DNA of 33,882 nucleotides from Desulfurivibrionaceae bacterium (GTDB taxonomy: Bacteria; Desulfobacterota; Desulfobulbia; Desulfobulbales; UBA5123): positions 1 through 33,882 of the forward strand of contig JAQYVW010000032.1 in the NCBI GenBank assembly GCA_030145325.1, written 5' to 3'. The stretch's first letter is position 1, and each line of letters begins with the position of its first letter. A program made the position numbers and the translations under genes. Shown piece by piece: positions 1,610-12,138 of the stretch. The notes under the pieces were generated by a model. The model did no database searches and was not told where the DNA came from. It saw nothing but the letters and a program-made list of their open reading frames with translations.

Positions 1610-3544
1610 ATGTCCGACGCCAACAGTTCCGAGAAAACATTAACCAAGAAATTTTTCGGCCTAAAAGATTGCCCTTTATTTGGTTTTTGCTTCAGAACCA
1701 GTATCACCGGCAAACTAATCGGAATGCTGGTTATCTCCCTTTTCGGCTTCAGCCTCATTTCCATCCAGCACACCTTCGCCCTGAGCAAAATTGACCATCG
1801 CCTCCATGAACTGCAGGCGGTGAGCATGCCGCAATACAAGGTGAGCCAATATATCTTGCGGCAACTGAACGGTTTCAAAATTTCCCTGATGCATATCTTG
1901 GCCCAGGAGGATTCAAAAAGTGCCGAAGTGAATCACGACATCCTCCTAAACCGACAACGGCTGGGTGATTTCAAACGGATGATTGCCGCTCTCCGCACTG
2001 GCGGTAAGGTGGAAGATGTAGCGAGAATATCCCAAGAAACACTGGACATTTTCACCGTAGAACCTGAGCCGCCGAACACGGAAATCCACGACTCTCTGGA
2101 AGAGATCAACCAAGAGCTTAACAACCTCGACGACGTCTTTACCCGCTTCGCCGACAATCTTTCTCACCAGGACAACAAGGAAAATAAATCGCAACAGCTG
2201 GGAGATCTTCTCGACAGCCTGGATGAAATATATGAACTGGTGACCAATTTCACTGTCCAGGTCAACGCTGAACACAACACCATGGTTAAAGATTCCGTCA
2301 GCATCATCCACGATTCCCGACGGAACTCCATCATCATCAGTCTGGTTGCCGCCCTTATTTTATGTATAGGTACCATGCTCTATATTATGATGATTGTCCG
2401 GCCCCTGAAAGATATCCTGGAGAACATCAAGGGCATCGCCAAGGGCAAGGGACGCTTGACCCACCAGATCGACGTCAAGACCCATGATGAGGTTGGGCAA
2501 CTTGCCATTCAACTCAACAAGCTGGTGGACAACCTCTTCAGCCTCAATAGCTTCAAGACCATCATCGAAGAAGAGGAAACCACTGGTGATGTACACAATC
2601 GGCTGGCGAAACTGCTCCACGAACGGTACCACTTTGACAAGCTGATCATATACGAGCTGCTGGGCAACAACAATAAAATGTCTGTGGCCTATGCTTCTGA
2701 TCACGAAATGCTCTGTGCCGACGAGGTTGTCGCCGATGGCAACCTGTGCCGGGCCAAACGAACCGGACATCCTATTTCCTTTAGCCAACATCCTGAAATT
2801 TGCAAACATTTCCCCTTCAACGGCAAATACGTACATCATTGCGTGCCAATGATCGCTGGTGGCCGGGTGATTGCCATTGTTCAGTTTCTGCATAAAATTG
2901 GTTGTCCACCCGAGGAGCTGAAAAGGTTTGAAGAGTCGGTAAAATGGGCCATGCGCTATATCAAAGAGGCGACGCCGGTGGTGGAGGCCAAACGGTTTGC
3001 CATGGTTCTCAAAGAGACCGCCCTTAAAGATCCCATGACCGACTTATACAACCGCCGCTTTCTTGAAACCTATGTGGATACCATTATCGCCAACTGCAAA
3101 CGCCGCAAGAGCAAGGTCGGAGTGATGATGTGCGACTTGGACTTCTTCAAGGAGGTCAACGACACCCACGGCCATGAAGCCGGTGACGCCGTGATCATTA
3201 AAATTTCCGAAATCCTCAAGAGTTGCGTCCGAGCCTCAGACATGGTGATCCGTTTCGGTGGCGAGGAATTCCTGGTTCTGCTCATCGACATTCAAGGCCG
3301 CGACGAGGTATGTGAACTGGCAGAACGGGTCAGGCAAACAATGGAGAGTACCTCCATCAAGCTTCCTGACGGCGGCACCCTGAAAAAAACCATCAGTATT
3401 GGTTACTGCGAGTACCCCACCGACACTGATGGATTCTGGGAATCAATCAAATTCGCTGATGTTGCCTTATACAAGGCCAAAGATGAGGGACGCAACCGCG
3501 CCCGCTGCTTCAGCCCGGATATGTGGACCCAAGAAACCTATTAG
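1610..3544 (+). CDS. Membrane diguanylate cyclase (HAMP, GAF-like, GGDEF)
   Basis: This predicted enzyme condenses two GTP into cyclic di-GMP in response to a signal sensed in the periplasm or cytoplasm. In order it has a first membrane segment (about 34-55) and a helical periplasmic region of about 180 residues resembling chemoreceptor sensor bundles. A second membrane segment (about 239-260), a HAMP linker (about 260-312), a GAF-like domain (about 325-450) and a GGDEF domain (about 468-640) follow. The active-site loop is intact as GGEEF (550-554). The product-inhibition I-site RxxD is present at R541-D544, five residues before it, so the enzyme should be active and feedback-inhibited. The GAF-like part contains unusually many Cys and His residues (about 360-412), which suggests a metal or redox input. 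The ribosome binding site is weak. The next gene, in the same direction, is a histidine kinase. Confidence 0.92.
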   Translation: MSDANSSEKTLTKKFFGLKDCPLFGFCFRTSITGKLIGMLVISLFGFSLISIQHTFALSKIDHRLHELQAVSMPQYKVSQYILRQLNGFKISLMHILAQEDSKSAEVNHDILLNRQRLGDFKRMIAALRTGGKVEDVARISQETLDIFTVEPEPPNTEIHDSLEEINQELNNLDDVFTRFADNLSHQDNKENKSQQLGDLLDSLDEIYELVTNFTVQVNAEHNTMVKDSVSIIHDSRRNSIIISLVAALILCIGTMLYIMMIVRPLKDILENIKGIAKGKGRLTHQIDVKTHDEVGQLAIQLNKLVDNLFSLNSFKTIIEEEETTGDVHNRLAKLLHERYHFDKLIIYELLGNNNKMSVAYASDHEMLCADEVVADGNLCRAKRTGHPISFSQHPEICKHFPFNGKYVHHCVPMIAGGRVIAIVQFLHKIGCPPEELKRFEESVKWAMRYIKEATPVVEAKRFAMVLKETALKDPMTDLYNRRFLETYVDTIIANCKRRKSKVGVMMCDLDFFKEVNDTHGHEAGDAVIIKISEILKSCVRASDMVIRFGGEEFLVLLIDIQGRDEVCELAERVRQTMESTSIKLPDGGTLKKTISIGYCEYPTDTDGFWESIKFADVALYKAKDEGRNRARCFSPDMWTQETY

Positions 3545-9991: not shown

Positions 9992-10198
9992 TCATCCCGA
10001 AAACTTGATCGTACGCCCCTGGCGAATGAAGGTGGGAATAGCGAGGTAGGTTTCCAAAGCATTTACCTGTCGCCCAACCGTTGGCAGCACCTCCTCACCA
10101 TTCTCCTTGGCCCTGGCTCGATCTTGCTCAGCAAGGGTTGTCAAAATTCTTGAAGCCGCCATGAAACCCGCCATAAATTGCTGCTCTCTGCTTGCCAT
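9992..10198 (-). CDS. Small hypothetical protein (68 aa)
   Basis: A short protein beginning MASREQQF. The ATG at 10198 is chosen because GGAGGAG ends about seven bases upstream; an earlier GTG in the same frame has no binding site. The first half is a likely amphipathic helix (FMAGFMAASRILTTLAEQD), then a charged turn and a second helix-like segment ending in a beta-like RTIKF. There is no signal peptide and no Cys. It is divergent from the WYL regulator gene, with 117 bases between the starts that contain a perfect 13-bp dyad, so it may be under that regulator's control. I do not recognise the family. Confidence 0.6.
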   Translation of the reverse strand: MASREQQFMAGFMAASRILTTLAEQDRARAKENGEEVLPTVGRQVNALETYLAIPTFIRQGRTIKFSG

Positions 10199-10264
10199 TG
10201 TCATCTCCTCCACGAAAGGCACTTGTAATCCCTGCTTGTGTTATTGTTGCCAACAGCTTACCCT

Positions 10265-10304
10265 TGCACCTAGGACAAACAGTGTCCTAGGTGCATTTTT
10301 TTTT
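10265..10304 (+). promoter_or_regulatory. Perfect 13-bp dyad with T-run before the WYL gene
   Basis: TGCACCTAGGACA (10265-10277) and its exact reverse complement (10283-10295) are separated by AACAG and followed by nine T. As DNA this is a strong candidate operator for the adjacent WYL regulator. As RNA it is an intrinsic terminator-like hairpin ending ten bases before AGGA, the ribosome binding site of the gene at 10316. It lies between two divergent starts (10198 minus, 10316 plus), which is an odd place for an ordinary gene-end terminator. Confidence 0.75.
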
Positions 10305-10315
10305 AGGATTTTTTT

Positions 10316-11335
10316 ATGGCTCGAAATAAAACAGCATTACTGCGCTTGCTCTTTATCGATAAAAAGATTCGGGAGGGGATGAGTAGCGGCGTGCTAGCCA
10401 ACAGTGGAAGCATGGCCGCCGAATACGAGGTAAGCAATAAAAGCATCCTGCGGGATATCGACTACCTACGCCACCAACGCGACGCTCCCATTGCCTATGA
10501 TAGTTCTCGCCGGGGCTACTATTACAGCGAAGAGCAATACCAACTACCGGCCATGGATCTGAACGAAAGCGACCTTTTCGCCATCTGTATCGCCGAAAAA
10601 ACATTGCTCCAACATGAAAACAGCCCGGTTTACCAGCGGTTGAAGTCAGTTTTTGACAAGATCGAGGCTTCGCTGCCAACCTCGGTGACGGTGCAGCCAG
10701 ACTGGCTGGCGGAAAACTTATCGGTGGTCCCGGAACATCAGACCCGCATCGATCCTGCGGTGTGGAGTACCATCACCCAGGGGTTACGGCAACATCTGTC
10801 GCTACAGATCCTCTATCAACGCCCGGGAGATAGAGAGCCTGCGGCCAGATGCTTCGACCCCTATCACATTGTCCGTTCCCAGGGTGAATGGTATCTGGTT
10901 GGCCACTGCCACCTCCGGGCGGCCTTGCGCACCTTTGCCGTCTCCCGCATTCATTCGGCAGTGCCCATGGCCGACGCCTTTACCATCCCGGACGACTTCA
11001 CCCCCGAAGCCTACCGCGGCGGACGGTTTGGAATCTTCGGTAGCGACCGTGATTACCGGGTGCGCATCCGCTTTGCCCGCGACCATGCTCCATATCTACT
11101 GGAGCGACAGTGGCACCCCGAACAGGAGATCCACAAACATGCTGATGGTGAAATTGAATTGACCTTTCCGGCAACCAATCTGCATACCGTGCGGCAATGG
11201 GTGTTGTCATGGGGCGGCGGGGTTCAGGTACTGGAACCGGATCTTCTGGTGATGGCAGTTAAAGATGAACTAAGGAAGGCCCTTGCCGGTTATGAGGAGC
11301 AAGAGAAGTCGACACGAAAGGAAGGACAGGGGTGA
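10316..11335 (+). CDS. WYL-domain transcriptional regulator
   Basis: A 339-residue regulator with an N-terminal DeoR-like winged helix-turn-helix (about 8-65; NSGSMAAEYEVSNKSILRDI) and a C-terminal WYL domain. The name-giving motif is visible as EWYLVGH (about 191-197), and a WCX-like C-terminal extension covers about 235-325. WYL domains sense nucleic-acid or nucleotide ligands in several studied cases, including BrxR and CapW-type repressors of defence systems and PafBC. No defence genes are visible beside it here. AGGA lies seven bases before the ATG, directly after the dyad at 10265-10304, which suggests autoregulation. The stop overlaps the next gene start (TGATG at 11333-11337), so the downstream lipoprotein is translationally coupled. 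Confidence 0.88.
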   Translation: MARNKTALLRLLFIDKKIREGMSSGVLANSGSMAAEYEVSNKSILRDIDYLRHQRDAPIAYDSSRRGYYYSEEQYQLPAMDLNESDLFAICIAEKTLLQHENSPVYQRLKSVFDKIEASLPTSVTVQPDWLAENLSVVPEHQTRIDPAVWSTITQGLRQHLSLQILYQRPGDREPAARCFDPYHIVRSQGEWYLVGHCHLRAALRTFAVSRIHSAVPMADAFTIPDDFTPEAYRGGRFGIFGSDRDYRVRIRFARDHAPYLLERQWHPEQEIHKHADGEIELTFPATNLHTVRQWVLSWGGGVQVLEPDLLVMAVKDELRKALAGYEEQEKSTRKEGQG

Positions 11336-12138
11336 TGAGCAAAAGAAAAAATCAGCGGCTGGAACTAATCGGATGGCTACTAACATTAATCCTGATTGCC
11401 GGTTGCGCAGGGCAGGATCTCAAACCACAACCACCGTCACCGCCTCCCCCCCCGCAAAGAGTAACAACGACAACTGTAACCTCACTCCCCCTCCTTGGTT
11501 ACACTATCCAAGTTGGCGCTTTTGCCAACCTGGATAATGCGGTCCGGTTGATGAAATCCCTACAAAGGCAAAACCTTAACGCTTACTACATCAAGCACGC
11601 CAGTGGATTGTTCAAGGTTCGCTTTGGTGATTTCCCCTCCCGACCAGCCGCGCAAAAACGGGCCCTGGCCTTGCAAAAACGAGCCCTGATTGACGCCTTC
11701 TATATTGTCAAACCGAAGGATTATGCGGTTGCCAAACACAGTGGTCACAGTAATGATGCTTTACGAAAAAGCCTCATTAATACCGCCAAGCGGTTCTTGG
11801 GTGTTCCATATAAATGGGGCGGAGAATCGGTCAAGGAGGGGTTTGATTGCAGCGGACTGACCATGACCATCTATCGGATGAACGGCCTAAAGCTACCACG
11901 CAATTCGCGACAACAGTACCGAGCGGGTCGGTTCGTAAAAAAAAGCGCCTTGCAAACCGGTGATCTGGTTTTTTTCGCCACCAAGGGCGGCAAACGAGTG
12001 AACCATGTCGGGATCTATCTGGGTAAGCACCGTTTTATCCACGCTCCCCGAACTGGCAAGACCATTCGCATCGCCTCGCTGGACAGCAAGTATTTCCGCA
12101 AGCGGTATCAGGGCGGACGCAGTTACATGGCCAACTAG
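11335..12138 (+). CDS. SPOR and NlpC/P60 domain lipoprotein
   Basis: A 267-residue predicted lipoprotein peptidoglycan hydrolase. A type II signal peptide ends in the lipobox IAGC, with C24 as the lipidated residue. A Pro-rich linker (about 31-41) leads to a SPOR domain (about 55-128; YTIQVGAFANLDNA), which binds glycan strands lacking stem peptides. An NlpC/P60 cysteine peptidase domain (about 145-262) follows. The catalytic Cys is C172 in DCSG, the His is H224 in NHVGIYLG, and the third polar residue is probably H236. The ATG at 11335 is preferred over the GTG at 11332; AAGGAAGGACAGG precedes both. It is coupled to the WYL regulator by one-base overlap. Its stop codon sits inside the 5' edge of repeat copy B. 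Confidence 0.9.
   Translation: MSKRKNQRLELIGWLLTLILIAGCAGQDLKPQPPSPPPPPQRVTTTTVTSLPLLGYTIQVGAFANLDNAVRLMKSLQRQNLNAYYIKHASGLFKVRFGDFPSRPAAQKRALALQKRALIDAFYIVKPKDYAVAKHSGHSNDALRKSLINTAKRFLGVPYKWGGESVKEGFDCSGLTMTIYRMNGLKLPRNSRQQYRAGRFVKKSALQTGDLVFFATKGGKRVNHVGIYLGKHRFIHAPRTGKTIRIASLDSKYFRKRYQGGRSYMAN

Follow-up and report, generated by a model that had tools for sequence, protein, structure and literature searches.

A conserved 19-bp box between divergent genes is the probable binding site of a DriD-like WYL regulator in Desulfobulbales

What is the function of a perfect inverted repeat that is followed by a run of T residues and lies between two divergent genes? This question is raised by a stretch of 33,882 nucleotides (the window) from a Desulfurivibrionaceae bacterium. 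The repeat, TGCACCTAGGACA-aacag-TGTCCTAGGTGCA, occupies positions 10265-10295, with arms that are complementary at 13 of 13 positions around a 5-nt spacer. Downstream come nine T (10296-10304), then an SD-like AGGA, and then the ATG of a WYL gene at 10316. The repeat is placed between an ORF of 68 aa on the minus strand (9992-10198) and this HTH-WYL-WCX gene (10316-11335). The description given in an earlier note (exact repeat, 5-base spacer, nine T, ribosome binding site, and divergent genes) is therefore confirmed at 10265-10304. The dyad is not a product of chance, with 0.003 perfect 13-bp dyads with spacers of 3-8 nt expected in 33.9 kb of the window's composition and one present, the runner-up within the window measuring 10 bp. 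As RNA, it folds with -23.3 kcal/mol (z -7.3), while no known RNA family matched it at E values up to 1. A search allowing up to 3 mismatches found the dyad in a single copy in its own 3.36-Mb genome, which rules out a repeated element or REP, and no plasmid copies of the intergenic region were found.

The earlier note had suggested that this dyad could be an operator of the WYL protein, a leader attenuator, or both, and had staked the proposal on the persistence of the dyad in close relatives that keep the regulator. It does persist: both same-genus relatives retain the dyad box (in one of the two, as far as an assembly gap allows). The wider comparison was based on sequence only, largely from metagenome-assembled genomes, in which WYL-domain relatives were found with a loose cut-off in 49 of 58 related genomes, and close orthologues (E <= 1e-60) in 78 of the 258 genomes of the order. 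Named genome records with orthologues belong to Desulfobulbaceae, other Desulfobacterota, Kiritimatiellia, Verrucomicrobia, Lentisphaerota, and Spirochaetes. A total of 76 WYL loci were scanned, of which 70 passed the motif score and ~68 are convincing, with L244 and L284 looking like chance matches; the box precedes the WYL orthologue in Desulfobulbales and also in Kiritimatiellia/Verrucomicrobia. The conserved element is a 19-bp box, TRGGAC-N7-GTCCYA (core TRGGACA-RAYRR-TGTCCYA), which corresponds in the window to TAGGACAAACAGTGTCCTA at 10271-10289 (GAC-N7-GTC), as defined by the information profile and the pair table. The outer 4 bp of the window's dyad arms are not conserved among the orthologous loci. 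Inside the box, GAC and GTC are invariant, and pairing is lost in about half of the loci at stem positions 1-17 and in about a third at 6-12. What is conserved is the identity of the bases rather than their pairing, which points to a DNA site for a protein and not to an RNA stem.

The distribution of the box leads to the same protein. Of the 27 genomes in which sites occur apart from the WYL gene, 24 hold the orthologue (Fisher p 2.7e-11, with genomes treated as independent). The other three (G031, G226, and G249), in which the orthologue was not detected, are 85-90% complete. In two genomes (G009 and G012), the box has remained beside the gene for a protein with an FtsZ-tail-like end, and the WYL gene, located elsewhere, has none in front of it. 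The retention of the box upstream of orthologous WYL genes across the order and beyond, together with the co-occurrence of motif and orthologue, supports the operator proposal, and the dyad at 10265-10295 is probably the binding site of the adjacent WYL protein, judging from its sequence and its conservation in orthologous loci.

The promoter associated with this box was overlooked by the earlier note. The strongest conserved one is on the opposite strand and is directed towards the small divergent gene. In the profile of 63 non-redundant loci, a near-invariant TA appears 11-12 nt ahead of the box, together with an A at -16; on the minus strand, these read as a -10 element TAnnnT. A main promoter reading into the WYL gene was considered and abandoned, because the A at -16 is the T6 of this reverse -10. 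On the minus strand, the module consists of the box, 2 nt, N8, and the -10 TAnnnT, with an A/T tract upstream and no -35. In the window, profile and pattern search place the predicted -10, TAAGCT, at 10255-10260 (minus strand), 8 nt past the extended box. T6 of the reverse -10 is found at 50 of 58 WYL loci and at 27 of 29 sites away from WYL genes, while the forward T6 is found at only 32 of 58 and 8 of 29, respectively. The best reverse -35 score over three spacers averages 1.2-1.7, below the background of 2.45. The box takes up about -23 to -41 of the minus-strand promoter, with its centre at -32. The A/T tract extends from -46 to -56, with an AT content of 0.83 for WYL loci, compared with 0.82 for box sites elsewhere, and in the window it is the T9 (10296-10304; A9 on the minus strand), at about -48 to -56. 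The T-run is replaced by an A-run in 25 of 63 loci, and this variation between lineages fits an UP element and not a terminator. According to these features, the T9 is probably the UP element of the divergent promoter. For the WYL gene itself, a weak forward promoter can be predicted on the plus strand at 10236-10264, composed of TTGTGT (10236-10241), 17 nt, and TACCCT (10259-10264). The forward match is raised only at WYL loci and not at other box sites. The start predicted from this promoter is inside the left arm of the dyad, so that dimer binding should lead to repression of the WYL gene.

The likely target of the minus-strand promoter, according to sequence and comparison, is the 68-aa gene (9992-10198, minus strand), which is preceded by the SD GGAGGAG. 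Its product has no family match in NCBIfam or PHROGs, and only a sub-threshold HTH_1 in Pfam. Several families have at this position a partner of 59-94 aa whose conservation lies mainly at the C-terminus, YLxIPTFIRxG. In the window, this end is encoded as YLAIPTFIRQG at 10016-10048 (minus strand), and comparison with FtsZ showed a resemblance to its C-terminal peptide (ELDRPTFLRRNES in the own genome, EELEIPAFLRRNEN in G012). It is plausible, on the basis of this short motif, that the 68-aa protein mimics the FtsZ C-terminal peptide. Elsewhere, its place is taken by ARPP-1 or by small proteins of another kind, as in the cultured relatives Desulfobulbus alkaliphilus and D. rhabdoformis, which have a different small protein. 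A swap of partners is observed in the Desulfobulbus-type loci L266-L291 and in L262, L275, and L283 from Kiritimatiellia, where the gene codes for a membrane peptide (MGYxIAYLLLALAxDL...RRLWNDTxFDCRS) or for a 47-aa protein with C-terminal THRGLFRRVLLMLI.

The regulator gene (10316-11335, plus strand) encodes a wHTH-WYL-WCX protein of 339 aa, with WYL and WCX domains in Pfam, and helices plus a wing at residues 7-70 of the predicted model. The best PDB fold match of this model, whose inter-domain confidence is low (pTM 0.40), is DriD with ssDNA and DNA (E 3e-15; TM ~0.46), and DriD and PafBC rank above BrxR and CapW; the best PDB sequence match is PafBC. The stop codon is overlapped by the gene of a SPOR-NlpC/P60 lipoprotein (11332-12138, plus strand; assigned from Pfam and position), which is likely part of the same operon; in several related loci, a lipoprotein gene is likewise downstream of WYL. 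The neighbours of the WYL gene in the window are a pseudouridine synthase gene, the 68-aa gene, and the NlpC/P60 gene, with no defence island.

DriD from Caulobacter crescentus is a WYL activator of an SOS-independent damage response. It binds ATACGAC-N7-GTCGTAT centred on the -35 at promoters with a poor -35, keeping a fixed distance to the -10, upon stimulation by ssDNA (PMC12340889), and induces the division inhibitor DidA (PMC4211646). The regulator studied here shares the domain composition, the GAC-N7-GTC palindrome near -35 at a fixed -10 distance with a poor or missing -35, and a small gene possibly acting on division among the targets. However, the half-site reads RGGAC instead of ACGAC in its outer bases, the small protein is soluble-looking with an FtsZ-tail-like end (DidA, also small, is located in the membrane and acts on FtsN), and defence systems carry the box; the likeness is one of sequence geometry. 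SiwR from Mycobacterium smegmatis, which binds ssDNA and activates, recognizes a palindrome of 19 bp located upstream of the -10 in an operon divergent from its own gene (PMC10693628). The palindrome and its placement are common to both, as are a GGA triplet at about -26 and a homodimeric state (a predicted one here). In contrast, SiwR targets belong to the DinB superfamily, in place of the FtsZ-tail-like protein, ARPP-1, or other small proteins found here by lineage, and in our case sites occur genome-wide. PafBC from actinobacteria, another WYL-WCX activator, inserts between the promoter and sigma domain 4 (PMC11804915), taking over the -35 contact (sigma adaptation) in the way that would be expected here, although as a heterodimer on a non-palindromic motif. 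By sequence geometry, the regulator appears to work like DriD and SiwR, with full membership of that class depending on the ssDNA response and activation.

The module is present well beyond the WYL locus, and its occurrence at defence and repair genes was also overlooked by the earlier note. A strict search for the box in the 258 genomes yielded 67 sites in 43 genomes versus 3 matches in the reversed control, and the pattern of box plus -10 yielded 57 matches versus 1. Some of these sites have shared flanks (the cas3e/Bro-N group, two BREX sites, and the IS copies) and are not independent. The module reads into brxA/B/C (L074, L077) and brxF/brxC (L125) of BREX; into cas3e (L078), Bro-N followed by cas3f (L139), and another cas3 (L355), types I-E and I-F being represented among these CRISPR systems; and into cas9 (L085). 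At L356, cas3 lies further downstream, behind a second WYL gene. Other genes read from the module encode a Bro-N or DUF1016 nuclease (L130, L134), a type IIG R-M enzyme (L142), an HNH restriction enzyme (L128), ARPP-1 (L148, and L083 by similarity), IS1595 transposases (L118, L149, and copies) and, in one genome, RecA (L082). In the own genome, the module reads into a cas3-HD fragment (L089/L035). A few sites precede genes without a common theme (L079, L080, L136, L144, L146, L151).

Several observations on these sites are worth recording separately. Those first assigned to umuDC were found to read into BREX, umuD being back to back with the BREX operon across the box in three genomes (L077, L074, L125). 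IS1595-family elements hold the box shortly before the transposase (L112-L122, L149; in the own genome, C59, L087), with five copies each in G169 and G180, and these mobile elements appear to use the host regulator. An orphan family of ~72 aa, MIxNVTVxxD...RCGYIVAEDENGEETFHHDLL, is found behind the box in four genera with no confident family match (L071:3454-3672; L072:3325-3543; L084:2686-2901; L147, within 3173-3538). Finally, a further box of the own genome (G000:C15:16880-16898; L088 3081-3099) is accompanied by a -10 TATGAT and an A-tract with no gene behind, and by a strong hairpin, AACCCAGGTTCAACAAGGTTGAACCTGGGTT, ~100 nt downstream, so that a regulated small RNA is possible.

Other explanations of the dyad differ in how they account for these data. 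BrxR and CapW are WYL repressors with related inverted repeats (PMC9122601, PMC9122589, PMC9122588), and the protein could be of this type, sitting on the box and blocking both promoters until ssDNA or another ligand releases it. The fold is shared, both act as dimers on an inverted repeat near their own promoter, and there is a link to phage defence, defence genes being among the targets here; BrxR binds 10-11-bp repeats with a 5-bp spacer, which is also the geometry of our box, and in one case overlaps the -35. CapW, according to later work, is released by ssDNA, and the predicted WYL start and a -35 region both lie under the box, where binding could repress. Nevertheless, BrxR and CapW are encoded inside the defence island that they repress, whereas this gene is not beside a defence operon and lies outside any island in the window. 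Moreover, the conserved promoters have no -35 and should be weak unaided; the box is centred where that element would be, and this position matches that of the DriD and SiwR activators. The fold matches also place DriD and PafBC ahead of BrxR and CapW. The promoter geometry argues for activation over repression, and we consider a repressor of this type unlikely.

A leader attenuator or terminator of the WYL transcript, made of an RNA hairpin and a U-run, would explain the terminator-like match at 10265-10304 and the strong fold. This part of the earlier proposal did not hold, as neither the stem pairing nor the U-run is conserved in homologous leaders, the predicted WYL start is inside the very arm that should form the hairpin, and an A/T tract likewise accompanies boxes that have no WYL gene downstream; action at the RNA level is the least credible of the readings considered. 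Hardly better is a box belonging to another, LexA-like regulator with WYL as a mere target. The sites at recA, beside umuDC, and at transposases do recall SOS control, and no WYL orthologue was detected in three of the genomes with sites. However, the box is present at recA in 1 of ~29 genomes, its commonest location adjoins the WYL gene with whose orthologue it co-occurs, and only 12 of 38 relatives hold a LexA DNA-binding domain in one Pfam domain search, which makes a LexA box very improbable. Regarding LexA itself, within this set (G000-G037), the own genome matches the domain weakly, and many members of the order may lack classical SOS control.

The reading that we favour, with a probability of roughly two in three, is that of an activator box for a DriD-like WYL regulator that drives the divergent 68-aa gene and probably represses its own. 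It draws on conservation, promoter geometry, further sites, and co-occurrence, and it is from the promoter geometry that the direction of control is deduced. According to this model, a WYL homodimer would contact both GAC/GTC half-sites, the box replacing on the minus strand the -35 of the promoter formed by TAAGCT and the upstream A/T tract. Single-stranded DNA, the signal of DriD, PafBC, and SiwR, would most likely activate the regulator, which would then recruit RNA polymerase and switch on the 68-aa gene, whose product may delay division through its FtsZ-tail-like end. On the plus strand, the same bound dimer would cover the predicted start of its own gene. As related genomes have the module in front of genes for defence and repair, the regulator would act in trans as a hub.

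Among known WYL regulators, BrxR and CapW control the defence island in which they are encoded, and PafBC and DriD control repair genes and related ones. The single chromosomal regulator described here appears to act on both kinds of target by means of a promoter module that is fully specified, and it may couple defence and the control of cell division to DNA damage or phage attack. More tentatively, and with somewhat less than even odds, this order-wide DriD-like activator could be a hub for mobile defence systems that carry its promoter module, with an FtsZ-tail-mimicking partner holding back division, in a LexA-independent damage checkpoint coupled to immunity; with the same reservation, the systems plugging into it would be BREX I and III, CRISPR I-E, I-F, and II, and restriction-modification. 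The locus also teaches that a dyad with a T-run before a gene can be part of a promoter on the opposite strand. For sulfate-reducing bacteria, many of them without a detectable LexA DNA-binding domain, it would provide a readable and testable regulon, together with a candidate inhibitor of division whose end imitates the FtsZ tail.
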